Source of the DNA: Luteimonas galliterrae
Lineage (GTDB): Bacteria > Pseudomonadota > Gammaproteobacteria > Xanthomonadales > Xanthomonadaceae
NCBI RefSeq assembly: GCF_023374055.1
Contig: NZ_JAMBEP010000001.1
Coordinates: 1,984,001 to 2,048,000 of the forward strand
Length of the DNA stretch: 64,000 nucleotides
Reading direction: 5' to 3'
The translations under genes and the position numbers were made by a program. Positions 8,685 through 58,131 of the stretch are shown here, piece by piece. Under the pieces are notes generated by a model that was given only the letters and a program-made list of their open reading frames with translations, was not told the origin of the DNA and made no database searches. Each line of letters starts with the position of its first letter. Position 1 is the stretch's first letter.

Positions 8685-8715
8685 GCCCCGAGCGTGACGG
8701 CCTCAACCGATCACG

Positions 8716-8975
8716 GCTATCGGAAGAATCCGCACCGCCATGCAAGAAAAACCCGTAGCCCGAGTAAGGCCGCAGGCCGCACCCGGGATTACGTCACGTC
8801 GGATAGAAGAGCCCCGGGTGCGCTTCGCTTACCCGGGCTACGCTGGCTATCGGAAGAATCCGCGCCGCCATGCAAGAAAAACCCGTAGCCCGGGTAAGGC
8901 CGCAGGCCTCACCCGGGATTACGTCACGTCGGATCGAAGAGCCCCGGGTGCGCTTCGCTTACCCGGGCTACGCTG
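8716..8975. repeat. 130-bp tandem duplication of a REP pair
   Basis: Two consecutive copies (8716-8845 and 8846-8975) with a 130-base period, beginning GCTATCGGAAGAATCCGC and containing a head-to-head pair of GTAGCCCGGGTAAG units. They differ at only a few positions, so the duplication looks recent. The second copy supplies the 3' end of the truncated gene at 8924-9322. Confidence 0.88.
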
Positions 8976-9322
8976 GCTGGCAGTTTTCCGTTATTCGTTA
9001 GACGAAGACGTATGATTCTTTGGAAAGCTTCTGCCGCGCCGCTTGCCGCCGTAGCAGGGATACTTTCAACGTCTCCCACATATGGAGACTTCGATTCAAG
9101 CTCAATGCTAATTTTTGGCTTGGCTAGCCAATTGCGGAATCTGTCCCCAAACACTGCTAGCGCAGCAACAACTATTGTGCCAACGGCCGTAACAAGATCA
9201 AAAACGAACTCATAGTGACTGAGTGGTTTTTGATCTTGGATAACGCCGGCTACAGTAGCACTCGTTTTCAAGCTAGAAGGCGAATCCGCATTCGCCCTGG
9301 AGTGCGAGTCTTGCGAATCCAT
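8924..9322 (-). pseudogene. Hypothetical membrane protein, 3' end replaced by REP sequence
   Basis: A frame of 132 residues with one membrane segment (FVFDLVTAVGTIVVAALAVFG, about 42-62), a soluble part ending in a beta-rich stretch (RIIRLRLTNNGKLPA), and then a tail SVARVSEAHPGLFDPT encoded entirely by the REP unit that ends at 8975. The intact protein presumably continued beyond NGKLPA, so I regard it as truncated. The unique part is visibly AT-richer than all neighbours, suggesting horizontal origin. The ATG at 9322 has GGGGAGAG directly upstream. It starts 17 bases after the stop of nrdJb. Confidence 0.6.
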
Positions 9323-22360: not shown

Positions 22361-23479
22361 ATGAACGCATCGCCCGACGCCGTATCCGCGCCCGACGCCT
22401 CGCCGGAACCGCCCGCGCCGCCGCCGCGTCCGCGCGCGTCCATGGCGCTCGTCGTGCTGGCCGTGCTCGCGGTCGGCTATACGCTTTGGGCCGCGCAGGA
22501 GATGATCCTGCCGGTGCTGCTGGCGATGTTCTTCGCGCTGATCGGCAACCCCATCCTGCGCGGACTGCGCCGCATGTACATCCCGCGCTTCCTTGGCGCG
22601 CTGCTGGTGCTGGCGCTGGGCTTGGCCGGCGCGGTGCTGCTCGGCCGCCAGCTGATCGTGCCGGCCGGCGAATGGATGCAGCAGATCCCCAAGGAACTGC
22701 GCGTGCTGGCGCCCAAGCTGCGGCAGATGACGCAGCCGATGCAGCAGGCCAACAAGGCCGCCGAATCTTTCGCGCGCGCGGCCAGCGAGCCGAACACGCG
22801 CAAGGTGCAGGTGGTCACCATCCAGGACCCCGATCCGTGGAAGTCGCTGACCGCCACGCCGAAGATGCTGGCCTCGGTGCTGGCGGTGGTGCTGCTGACG
22901 TTCTTCTTCATGACCTTCGGCGAGAACCTGCAGCGCAATGCGATCGCGCTGCTGCCCACGCGCCAGCGCAAGAAGCTGACCGTGGACATCCTGCAGTCGA
23001 TCGAGCTGGAGATTTCGCGTTACGTGCTGACCATCAGCCTCATCAACACGCTGCTGGGCCTGGCGGTGGCCGCTTCGCTTTACGCGCTGGGTCTGGAGGT
23101 GCAGGAAGCGCTGTTGTGGGGCACGGTGGCGGCGCTGTTGAACTTCGCGCCTTATGTCGGGCCGTTGATCGGGGTGGGCCTGATGCTATTGATGGGCTTC
23201 GTCACGTTCGAGGGGTTGTGGCCGGACTACGAGTGGTCGCCTTTGGCGCCGGCGGCGATTTATCTGGCGCTGCATACGATCGAAGGCCAGATTGTCACGC
23301 CGATCGTGCTCGGCAGGCGCATGGCCTTGTCGCCGCTGGTGCTGATCCTGGCGCTGATGCTGTTCGGTTGGCTGTGGGGCATCATCGGCCTGCTGCTGGC
23401 GGTGCCGCTGCTGGTGTGCGTGAAGATCGTGCTGGGGCGGATCGAAGGTTTGGAGGGCTGGGCCAAGTTGCTCGAGTGA
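22361..23479 (+). CDS. AI-2E/PerM family transporter
   Basis: A 372-residue inner-membrane protein. Helices cluster at about 28-75 and 80-100, then a soluble amphipathic stretch (100-175), then four to five helices ending in LALMLFGWLWGIIGLLLAVPLL, a signature of the AI-2E transporter (TqsA/PerM/YdiK) family. The motif NFAPYVGPLIG in the second half is typical. Substrates of most members are unknown; autoinducer-2 export is documented only for a few. The first 25 residues are Pro/Ala-rich and cytoplasmic. The composite repeat begins 23 bases after the stop. Confidence 0.88.
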   Translation: MNASPDAVSAPDASPEPPAPPPRPRASMALVVLAVLAVGYTLWAAQEMILPVLLAMFFALIGNPILRGLRRMYIPRFLGALLVLALGLAGAVLLGRQLIVPAGEWMQQIPKELRVLAPKLRQMTQPMQQANKAAESFARAASEPNTRKVQVVTIQDPDPWKSLTATPKMLASVLAVVLLTFFFMTFGENLQRNAIALLPTRQRKKLTVDILQSIELEISRYVLTISLINTLLGLAVAASLYALGLEVQEALLWGTVAALLNFAPYVGPLIGVGLMLLMGFVTFEGLWPDYEWSPLAPAAIYLALHTIEGQIVTPIVLGRRMALSPLVLILALMLFGWLWGIIGLLLAVPLLVCVKIVLGRIEGLEGWAKLLE

Positions 23480-23501: not shown

Positions 23502-24265
23502 GCTCTGTAGAGCAAGGCTCGCCCCGCTGCTCTTGCTCCGGCTCTGTAGAGCGGAGCTTGTTCCGCTGCTCCTCGCTCTTAAGCCGTTCGCTCTTAAGAC
23601 GTTCGCTCTCAAGCCGTTCGCTCTCAAGCCGTCATCCCAGCGAACGCTGGGACCCATCTTGCTCTTGCCCTTGCCCTTAAGCCGTCATCCCGGCGAGGCC
23701 GGGATCCAGGCCCGCGTCCTGGCCAGTTGCGCTGCGACTCGCGCCATGGACAAAGGCTTCCGCGCTGCGCGCGGGTCACTTTCTTTGTTGGCCCAAAGAA
23801 AGTAACCCAAGAAAGGGCCTGAACTGCGGTGCGATGCGTCGCACCTGAAGTCCGCCAGCGGCCCGGCTTTCGTCGCAGATGACCTTCTTACGCAGGTACT
23901 AGATTTTGATTCGTAGCGTATGGGTGACGTGGCTTTTGCGGAGTTGCGCTAAGGAGGCGTTCGGGTCGATCGCTTCGGATCTGAATGTCGAAGCGAAGGA
24001 GGAATCCCGAGAGCCGGTGAGAAGGGCCAAGAACGCGGGGGAGCCCCATCGCCGGGATCCCTTCCAAAGGCCCTTTTTCTTTGGTTACTGTTCTTTTTGG
24101 GCCCATCAAAAAGAAAGTAACTCGGCCGCGGTTTTAGCGGACGAAACCCCGGCCCAAAGGGCCGGCAGATCGCGAGAATCTCAAGCAAAGGCAGCGGGGC
24201 AAGCCCCGCTCTACAGAGCAACAGCAAATCTCCCCGGCCCCTTTTTTTCAAAGAGGGGAGACAAG
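23502..24265 (+). repeat. Composite nested inverted-repeat element, copy 1
   Basis: About 760 bp without a convincing gene. Order: outer end GCTCTGTAGAGC...CCCCGCTGC (23502-23530), partly duplicated at 23540-23570; four 15-bp tandem units TTCGCTCTTAAGCCG (about 23573-23632); hairpins GTCATCCCAGCGAACGCTGGGA and GTCATCCCGGCGAGGCCGGGAT; inner block GTCACTTTCTTTG...AAAGGGCC (23775-23819); a 249-bp core; an inverted inner block (24069-24121); the inverted outer end (24191-24219, 26 of 29 bases matching); and a CTCCCC...GGGGAG hairpin. A second copy lies at 37295-38021 in the same orientation. Frames differ between copies, so it is unlikely to encode protein. Confidence 0.85.
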
Positions 24266-24335: not shown

Positions 24336-25067
24336 ATGCCCCGGGTGAGCTTCCCCGTCCGCGCCATCACCCTCGATCTCGACGACACGCTGTGGCCGTT
24401 TGCGCCGATCGGCGAGCGCATCGAGCGCGTGCTCGACGAATGGATGCGCGAACACAGCCCCGCCACCGCGGCCATGTTCCCGATCCCGGAAATGCGCGCC
24501 CTGCGCGACCGCGTCTTCGCCGAAAACCCGCAACTGATCCACGACCTCAGCACCCTGCGCCGCATGACCCTGCAACGCGCGCTGAGCGAGAGCGGCGGCG
24601 ACCCCGCATTGGCCGATGCCGCCTACGATGCCTTCCACGCCGCGCGCAACCAGGTGGACTGCTATCCGGACAGCATCGACGCACTCGCACGCATCGCCGC
24701 GCACCTGCCGGTGGCAGCGCTGACCAACGGCAACGCCGATCTGCAGCTGATCGGCTTGGCCGGGCACTTCCGCTTCCAGCTCGGCGCGCGCGAACACGGC
24801 GCAGCCAAACCCGAGCCCAGCATCTTCCACGCCGCCTGCGAACGGCTCGGCGTGGCGCCCGCAGAAGTGCTGCATGTGGGCGACGATGTCGAGATGGACG
24901 TGGTCGGCGCCGCGCGCGCCGGCCTGCGCACCTGCTGGATCAACCGCGACGGCCGGCCCTGGCCGCATCGCGATCCGCAACCCGACCTGCATTTCGAGAC
25001 GCTCGCCGCCCTGGCCGATTGGCTGGACGCGCATTCCCACCGCCGACCGGATACCGCCGCCGCATGA
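24336..25067 (+). CDS. HAD-superfamily phosphatase (YigB/YjjG-like)
   Basis: A 243-residue HAD hydrolase of subfamily IA. Motif I is LDLDDTLWP (nucleophile and acid Asp), a helical cap covers about 25-105, motif II is ALTNGN, motif III is the Lys in AAKPEPSIF, and motif IV is VGDDVEMDVVGA. The LDDTLWPFAP variant resembles YigB, which dephosphorylates the riboflavin intermediate 5-amino-6-(5-phosphoribitylamino)uracil; that substrate is a possibility, not a conclusion. The next gene overlaps its stop by 4 bases. A GTG at 24345 is an alternative start. Confidence 0.87.
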   Translation: MPRVSFPVRAITLDLDDTLWPFAPIGERIERVLDEWMREHSPATAAMFPIPEMRALRDRVFAENPQLIHDLSTLRRMTLQRALSESGGDPALADAAYDAFHAARNQVDCYPDSIDALARIAAHLPVAALTNGNADLQLIGLAGHFRFQLGAREHGAAKPEPSIFHAACERLGVAPAEVLHVGDDVEMDVVGAARAGLRTCWINRDGRPWPHRDPQPDLHFETLAALADWLDAHSHRRPDTAAA

Positions 25068-37294: not shown

Positions 37295-38021
37295 GCTTGT
37301 AGAGCAAAGCTTGCTCCGCTGCTCTTCGCTCTTAAGCCGTTCGCTCTTAGGCCGTTCGCTCTTAGGCCGTTCGCTCTTAGGCCGTCATCCCAGCGAACGC
37401 TGGGACCCATCTTGCTCTTGTGCTTGCCCTTCAGCCGTCATCCCGGCGAATGCCGGGATCCAGGCCCGCGTCCTCGCGGGTCGCGCTGCGACTCGCGCCA
37501 TGGACAAAGGCTTCCGGGCTGCGCCCGGGTCACTTTCTTTGTTGGCCCAAAGAAAGTAACCCAAGAAAGGGCCTGAACTGCGGTGCGATGCGTCGCGATT
37601 AAAAATACGCCAGCGGACCTGCTTTCGTCGCAGGTGACCTTCTTACGCAGGTACTAGATTTTGATTCGCAGCGTATGGGTGACGTGGCTTTTGCGGATTT
37701 GCGCTAAGGAGGCGTTCTGGTCGATCGTCTCGGATCTAAATGTCGAAGCGACGGAGGAATCCCGAGGGCCGGCGAGCAATGGCCAAGAACACGAGGTAAC
37801 CCCATCGCCGGGACACCTTCCAAAGGCCCTTTTTCTTTGGTTACTGTTCTTTTTGGGCCCCACAAAAAGAAAGTAACTCGGCCGCGGTTTTAGCGGACGA
37901 AACCCCGGCCCGAAGGGCCGGCAGGTCGCCACAAACCCACAAGCAGAGGCAGCGGAACAAGCTCCGCGCTACAAAGCAACAGCAAATCTCCCCGGCCCTC
38001 TTTTTTTAAAGAGGAGACAAG
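37295..38021 (+). repeat. Composite nested inverted-repeat element, copy 2
   Basis: Same order as copy 1: outer end (37295-37322), four 15-bp units TTCGCTCTTAGGCCG (about 37325-37383), the two GTCATCCC hairpins, inner block (37529-37573), core of 251 bp, inverted inner block (37825-37876), inverted outer end (37949-37977) and the terminal hairpin. It lies after the efflux operon and runs up to the 3' end of the convergent mocA-like gene. The stretch of about 55 bases from GACCTTCTTACGCAGGTACT is nearly identical to copy 1. Confidence 0.85.
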
Positions 38022-38026
38022 CGACG

Positions 38027-57675: not shown

Positions 57676-58131
57676 ATGGGACGAGGACACGTTATGCTCA
57701 GGAAAGGTCGCTGCTCCATCGCCGGACATATTTACCTAGTGACCTTCGCCACACACGAGCGTACTCAGCACTTCGACCGATGGGAGGTTGCCTCGCTGGC
57801 CGCCAGCGAAATCTCGAACTCCTATGCCTGGAAGCGCTCACAGTTGCTCGCTTGGGTGCTGATGCCGGATCACTGGCACGGCCTCATTCAAGTGGGCGAA
57901 GGGGATGCCTTGTCCGGCTGCGTGGGACGTCTGAAGGGGTCGACTTCGCGCCAGCTCAAACTGGCGCATCCCCAGCTAGGCCGCATCTGGGCGCCTGGGT
58001 TCCACGATCACGCACTGCGGAAAGATGAAGATCTGCGCGCTGCGGCTCGATATCTGGCGATGAATCCGGTGCGGGCCGGCTTGGTGGAGCGCGTCGGTGA
58101 CTATCCTTACTGGGATGCGGTCTGGATATGA
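57676..58131 (+). CDS. REP-associated tyrosine transposase (RAYT), copy 2
   Basis: A 151-residue Y1 HUH transposase with the metal motif MPDHWHGL (His66, His68) and catalytic Tyr126 in ARYLAMNPVRAGLV; the strand IYLVTFATHER matches the first strand of the fold. It differs clearly from copy 1, so it is a different subgroup. Two inverted copies of the GTAGGAGCGGCTTCAGCCGC hairpin bracket it, giving a compact REP-RAYT-REP unit of about 630 bp inserted between mltB and rodA. An alternative ATG lies at 57694. Confidence 0.92.
   Translation: MGRGHVMLRKGRCSIAGHIYLVTFATHERTQHFDRWEVASLAASEISNSYAWKRSQLLAWVLMPDHWHGLIQVGEGDALSGCVGRLKGSTSRQLKLAHPQLGRIWAPGFHDHALRKDEDLRAAARYLAMNPVRAGLVERVGDYPYWDAVWI

Follow-up and report, generated by a model that had tools for sequence, protein, structure and literature searches.

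The window analysed here (64,000 nucleotides of DNA from Luteimonas galliterrae, genome G000) contains, between a gene for an AI-2E-type transporter (22361-23479, + strand) and a gene for a HAD hydrolase (24336-25067, + strand), a segment with nested inverted repeats (23502-24265), and the question raised by this locus is what kind of element occupies the gap. In the preliminary description it was considered a possible undescribed MITE-like or structured RNA element. Put most cautiously, the segment belongs to a new family of intergenic elements that are structured and non-autonomous, carry end modules with covarying parts, and evolve strongly in concert at the sites they share. No description or function of the element was found in the openly available literature, as had been supposed, and a fragment of it is in print as Bp1_Cand684.

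Architecture of the element and its copies in the genome

The inverted-repeat search of the window returned an outer pair (23502-23537 and 24184-24219, 36 nt, 86%), inner blocks (23767-23786 and 24110-24129, 80%), and a local hairpin (23773-23787 and 23794-23808, 93%), and the nested layout noted at the outset recurs in further copies. The outer left arm (23502-23571, + strand) consists of two GTAGAGC-type REP units, with the REP architecture given in the accessible part of PMC2817692; the second fits the REP unit used at up to 4 mismatches, and the first is more divergent. Next to it are found, as already described for the left half, four 15-bp tandem units (23573-23632, + strand, 93%) and two GTCATCCC hairpins, both on the + strand (about 23631-23653, read from the sequence and the copy alignment, and about 23684-23707). 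The outer right arm (24184-24219, - strand; inverted-repeat and REP searches) is a GTAGAGC-type REP unit. It is only the outer arms that are made of GTAG plus hairpin units in inverted pairs.

The element proper extends from the A-end module (23755-23819, + strand) to the inverted B-end module (24069-24151, - strand; inverted-repeat search and copy alignment), around a non-coding core of ~250 bp (23820-24068, + strand; copy alignment and frame test), while the GTCATCCC hairpins and the GTAGAGC-type REPs lie outside of it. The inner blocks are the ends of the element, whereas the supposed outer ends had to be reassigned to REP units. The A-end module, which is near-invariant in 76 aligned copies and shows covariation, contains an outer hairpin and the hairpin 23775-23787/23794-23806 (with one C-A mismatch), and a part of its loop (23790-23794) is complementary to the arm at 23815-23819. 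The best conserved block of the core (23866-23942, + strand) includes a 32-mer (23880-23911) and is retained in the aligned copies of G003. The edges at 23502-24265 are not sharp: among the aligned own-genome copies similarity mostly reaches ~+340 from the 32-mer, and the left end is uneven.

A second full copy is present in the window (37298-38022, + strand; whole-segment, motif and REP searches). The AAAGAAAGTAAC motif has six matches in the window at one mismatch or fewer (0.01 expected), three in each copy. Elsewhere in the window (8715-8978), a 130-bp unit occurs as two tandem copies that are 97% identical.

The core 32-mer is found 77 times in the genome (64 exact, 42 forward and 35 reverse, with no match for the reversed control), and the best 40 of the 267 candidate places for the whole segment are long matches of 85-100%. 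We aligned 76 of the 77 copies (one was not recovered as distinct). The left end module through GGTGACGTGGCTTTTGCGG is largely invariant among them, with a more variable piece in between, and the right half is mostly 85-95% conserved. The B-end module is absent, cut or displaced in 13 of the 76 (copies whose right-hand similarity stops before +200, the sequences of which were then read). The numbers of left REP units and of 15-bp units vary. A hairpin-rich module of ~75 bp is inserted in the second GTCATCCC palindrome in L034, L036, L057, L093, L103, L107, L108, and L029 (nine copies looked at), and in other copies this palindrome is uninterrupted.

The frame test covered the 43 of 76 cores that could be excised by pattern (lengths 260-265, one 238), and any one of the six frames is open in 0 to 5 of them, in line with the initial observation that the core has no stable reading frame. 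A protein-coding core was therefore rejected. No transposase gene is present in the G000 cores, and no annotated gene lies beneath the match in three annotated loci (the remaining records are almost without annotation). The segment is thus, as first proposed, composite, repeated and non-coding, and neither a plain REP nor an IS with a transposase.

In respect to the neighboring genes, oriented by a simple codon-GC caller, 34 of the copies lie in convergent, 37 in tandem and 4 in divergent gaps (75 of 76 placed), compared with 7, 17 and 9, respectively, for 33 other gaps of at least 50 bp in the window. Divergent gaps are under-used (p 0.003) and convergent ones over-used (p 0.02), and such an avoidance of gene starts is compatible with copies being tolerated as transcript ends or spacers. 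Along contig C1, a gap of 581 kb (453-1034 kb) has no copy of the 32-mer (P 0.00005 under uniform placing). In twenty 20-kb samples, the GC skew turns from positive to negative between the 580- and 660-kb samples, which suggests, for a draft contig with a weak skew, that the gap surrounds the replication terminus. The corrected end pattern matches in 8 of the 20, all of them outside the range 500-1000 kb. The six samples from 580 to 1000 kb lack GTAGAGC REPs, and five of them contain another REP type; three samples elsewhere (1450, 1600, and 2300 kb) lack GTAGAGC REPs as well. "Repeat deserts" are also reported for the Pseudomonas fluorescens repeats in the accessible sections of PMC2718517.

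Covariation and distribution of the end modules

A part of the hairpin loop of the end module is complementary to the arm located after the next AAAGAAA. From the loci sampled, 60 distinct pairs were reduced to one arm for each of 30 distinct loops (some of them near relatives); the pattern used left out most window-type ends, in which the second repeat begins with CAAG. The mean longest loop/arm complementarity is 4.4 bp, compared with 2.84 bp for permuted arms (0 of 20000 as high). At least 4 bp are found in 23 of the 30 loops (permuted average 5.5, maximum 13), while the other seven have fewer than 4 bp, two of them (the G016 type and a G064 variant) only 2 bp.

Covarying base pairs were sought and were found for one helix of 5 pairs, formed by loop and arm, in the 28 modules with an 8-base loop (window type included, other loop lengths left out). 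With controls that leave the relatedness of the modules in place, the covariation score of this helix is 0.491 vs 0.138 for shuffled modules (0 of 500), and its paired cells amount to 82.9% vs 62.0% (0 of 500); the score drops when the helix is slid. Changes occur on both sides at all 5 pairs, which is also the case in 22 of 500 shuffles. The end hairpin itself is uninformative on covariation because 11 of the 12 pairs are invariant and the remaining one is, on the strand modelled, a C-A mismatch in 24 of the 28 modules. The loop and the following arm covary: they differ between taxa, yet they stay complementary.

We infer from this that the two segments pair as a pseudoknot, although a dimeric protein site would also covary. 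The pairing may take the form of an H-type pseudoknot, in RNA or in extruded single-stranded DNA. In duplex DNA, loop and arm form an inverted repeat around AAAGAAAGTAACCnAAGAAA, and could thus be the half-sites, ~25 bp apart, of a dimeric DNA-binding protein, covarying without pairing. The compensatory changes could reflect such a symmetric site, and the seven loops with short complementarity and the 22 shuffles weigh against the pairing. The half-site reading alone, however, leaves unexplained why one half-site is positioned in the loop of a near-invariant hairpin, and we consider it possible but rather doubtful. Either the pseudoknot or the paired half-sites might be needed by an enzyme or a transcript.

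The presence of the element in genomes is patchy. Within the family, an 18-base end pattern matches between 1 and 84 times per genome in 24 of the 149 genomes searched (own included), spread over 12 of 54 genera, and the reversed control has no match. The early impression that the motif is at home in Xanthomonadaceae was right. A stricter end pattern is found in 7 of 398 genomes sampled across the phylum, namely our own, four more of the family, one further of the order and one further of the class. The end module is also present in records of Caballeronia, Paraburkholderia, Ilyobacter (Fusobacteriota), and Pseudoalteromonas (E 1e-5 or better), with weak matches in Variovorax (0.006), Chitinibacter (0.02), and Burkholderia (0.07), and three IMG/VR contigs carry it. 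No match was obtained in 50,697 phage records (two queries) or in 5,426 E. coli genomes (one query), where the low-complexity filter of BLAST may weaken A/G-rich queries. Terminal inverted end modules are present in loci of G001, G016, Caballeronia and Paraburkholderia caribensis, and are less exact in G000. In the congener G001 the same end modules surround largely different cores, and G016 (genus g14) has the element in the form of a long inverted repeat that is symmetric; for one copy the folding z is -40 (20 shuffles only).

Shared sites and their differing contents

The flanks of the window site are matched in the congeners G001 and G003 at a distance of 810 and 562 bp, respectively, enclosing elements, and in G002 at a distance of 46 bp, without an element. 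The G003 element at this site is reversed relative to the window copy; that of G001 differs in its core and is likewise reversed as judged by its best end match. At the second window site, judged by match positions, G003 retains the left part only, G002 has ~118 bp between the matches, and just one flank is found in place in G001.

Among 11 G003 loci, picked because they match the core or the end of G000, 10 have flanks in common with a G000 copy (8 on both sides of one copy) and one has none. The 18 G001 loci correspond to 17 places, 6 of which have both flanks in common with a G000 copy and 11 no such pair (1 place has one common flank), and of 8 G002 loci one shares both flanks and one a single flank. 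The orientation relative to G000 at two-flank sites is the same at 5 and flipped at 3 in G003, the same at 1 and flipped at 5 in G001 (some of these calls rest on a short end match), and the same at 1 in G002. Over the left 190 bases, the mean identity is 0.930 within G000, 0.864 within G003, and 0.845 between them. Same-site G003/G000 pairs (7 of 8, the truncated L161 left out) average 0.853 and the same G003 copies against all G000 copies 0.849; a copy is therefore no closer to its same-site partner than to the others. A block of ~3.8 kb has moved and turned between G000 and G003, with its breakpoints at elements (L066 and L090 vs C3 66.5-80 kb), and two inversions through elements would produce it.

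A comparison of P. caribensis strains gives much the same picture. All 24 elements of strain 852011 share flanks with an element of MWAP64 (18 on both sides and 6 on one), with flank identities of 96.8-99.8% (mean 99.0). Same-site cores are on average 92.8% identical vs 89.1% over all pairs, but for only 9 of the 21 same-site pairs whose cores could be used (23 and 21 of the 24 elements) does the best match come from the same site; at one site the core is inverted. In the more distant strain MBA4, 9 of 11 loci share a flank with 852011/MWAP64. The two others are L277, which is located at a breakpoint, with no target duplication readable there, and L278, the flanks of which are unmatched in the other records listed.

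In general, the element is dispersed in tens of copies, which are rarely found between two gene starts and often occupy identical sites in different strains and congeneric species; likeness is greater among the copies of one genome than among those of different genomes, and at a shared site the copies may lie in opposite orientations. It is probably an intergenic element of old standing, structured and non-autonomous, whose copies are kept alike through gene conversion and through inversion via the ends. Homologous recombination would pair the strongly conserved end modules, and conversion and inversion would swap the core between sites as a cassette. The initial dispersal, transfer between phyla included, would have needed a mobilizing enzyme, which was not found. 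The rearrangement breakpoints at elements were counted in favor of this recombination reading. On the other hand, the pattern seen between species could also arise if elements had inserted time and again into the same repeat-rich gaps, though this is harder to suppose within P. caribensis. In that species the same-site cores are still closer than the all-pair mean, and this, like the unshared sites of MBA4, G003 and G001, speaks against the recombination reading. Furthermore, the inner arms of one element are no more alike than the arms of different elements (0.861 v 0.878, rank 4450 of 5040, in G016), and the hairpin and inner arms of P. caribensis show no excess likeness within an element. 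The idea that the arms of one element evolve together was supported only in G016, over the outermost 60 bases (0.837 v 0.764, rank 3 of 5040), and was rejected; in P. caribensis the outer 75 bases show a slight difference in this respect (0.848 v 0.832 and 0.834 v 0.806).

Relation to mobile elements and structured RNAs

Like bacterial MITEs and the R0 and R2 repeats of P. fluorescens, as presented in the accessible part of PMC2718517, the element is non-coding and intergenic and has inverted repeats around a variable core in many copies. It differs from the P. fluorescens repeats by its loop/arm covariation, its presence across phyla, and its overwritten and turned contents, features that were tested in the element alone. 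An actively transposing MITE, moved in trans by a transposase recognizing the inverted ends, with the shared sites as insertion hot spots, would account for the inverted end modules without a gene, the dispersal of copies in both orientations, the patchy occurrence across phyla, the empty G002 site, and the MBA4-only sites. However, the flanks shared by all 24 elements of strain 852011 argue against this reading, and no target duplication is definable, as the empty G002 site is too diverged to set the ends and the MBA4-only site is at a breakpoint. No parent transposon with the same ends was seen in the loci examined or among the end pairs listed. What remains of the MITE-like proposal are the inverted ends and the lack of a gene; active transposition is unlikely, and the elements give the impression more of fixed sites with overwritten contents than of MITEs that jump.

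An autonomous version was considered and rejected: in the three long (1.86-kb) end pairs the element is interrupted by an IS, each time at another position, and this IS encodes a Mutator-type protein in L220 (the one long pair scanned). The three P. caribensis elements concerned are L220, L221, and L222, and the same IS ends are also found in four further loci (L226, L227, L259, and L265), as if the elements were safe landing sites for IS.

The possibility that recombination has spread a structured RNA or 3'-UTR element (a terminator, an sRNA, or a site of processing or stability) draws on the covarying helix of the end module and on the small number of copies between two gene starts. In addition, both ends of the Caballeronia element L188 resemble RF02421 (36.8 and 36.5 bits; 30.9 for L216), below the gathering score of 44, the first ~60 positions of the model matching the outer half of the end module at both element ends. 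RF02421 is Bp1_684 (Bp1_Cand684), a Burkholderia sRNA candidate that the accessible part of PMC3521395 lists as RT-PCR validated, treats as a single sRNA gene, and describes as present in several phyla beside unrelated genes; the model covers one end only. The folding results weigh on the other side. The core of the window copy is no stabler than shuffled sequences on the + strand (z -0.81, equalled or bettered by 36 of 200 shuffles) and mildly stable on the - strand (z -2.34), the whole stretch giving z -3.49 and -4.35. The cores also vary greatly from genome to genome, the end hairpins are not followed by a run of T (by eye), the hairpin mismatch recurs in most modules, and the window has no Rfam match at gathering, RF02421 included. 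The matches of the loci to MIR918, mir-784, TwoAYGGAY, and Ms_AS-1 were taken as chance, and in L188 a match resembling a glycine riboswitch falls beyond the limits of the element. Of the structured-RNA proposal, the covarying end-module helix and the likeness to an sRNA candidate stand, the fold of the + strand core does not, and as an explanation of the whole element it is quite improbable.

The element resembles REPs and BIMEs with their RAYT, as far as they are covered in the accessible text of PMC2817692, in its extragenic location and its outer GTAG-type hairpins in inverted pairs, and differs from them in that the ~400-bp inside is a family of its own, the end modules occur in other taxa without GTAGAGC REPs, and no cognate RAYT was found in the own genome. 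A large BIME, with the GTAGAGC REPs as the mobile unit moved by a RAYT and the inside as a passenger, would agree with the four such REPs of the window (up to 4 mismatches), inverted outside both copies, and with those in G001 loci (6 matches) and at the G003 window site, but it is very unlikely, since these REPs are absent from 70 Burkholderiales and Ilyobacter loci (203,689 bases) and from 7 G016 loci, and both Y1_Tnp matches of G000 (7 candidates, all scored) adjoin other REP types. One RAYT-like Y1 transposase gene is located in the window (57676-58131, + strand), between its own inverted TGTAGGAGCGGCTTCAGCCGCGA REPs (57570, + strand, and 58171, - strand), which are of a type different from the REPs around the element.

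The recombination reading can be extended, tentatively and with a low probability, to a pseudoknot-ended cassette whose main way of spreading would be a homing-like conversion, in which it overwrites its relatives at fixed sites and the end structure guides the exchange. If this were true, whole sets of dozens of loci would change their core together between species. The family itself is a natural system that lends itself to counting: gene conversion could be followed directly across dozens of dispersed loci, from the same site and flanks, a different core and a flipped orientation. The resemblance to RF02421 suggests that an Rfam "sRNA" may be one end of a much larger element. One end module is common to Gamma- and Betaproteobacteria and Fusobacteriota, and the covariation of its loop and arm asks for an explanation by a partner enzyme or by a function as RNA.
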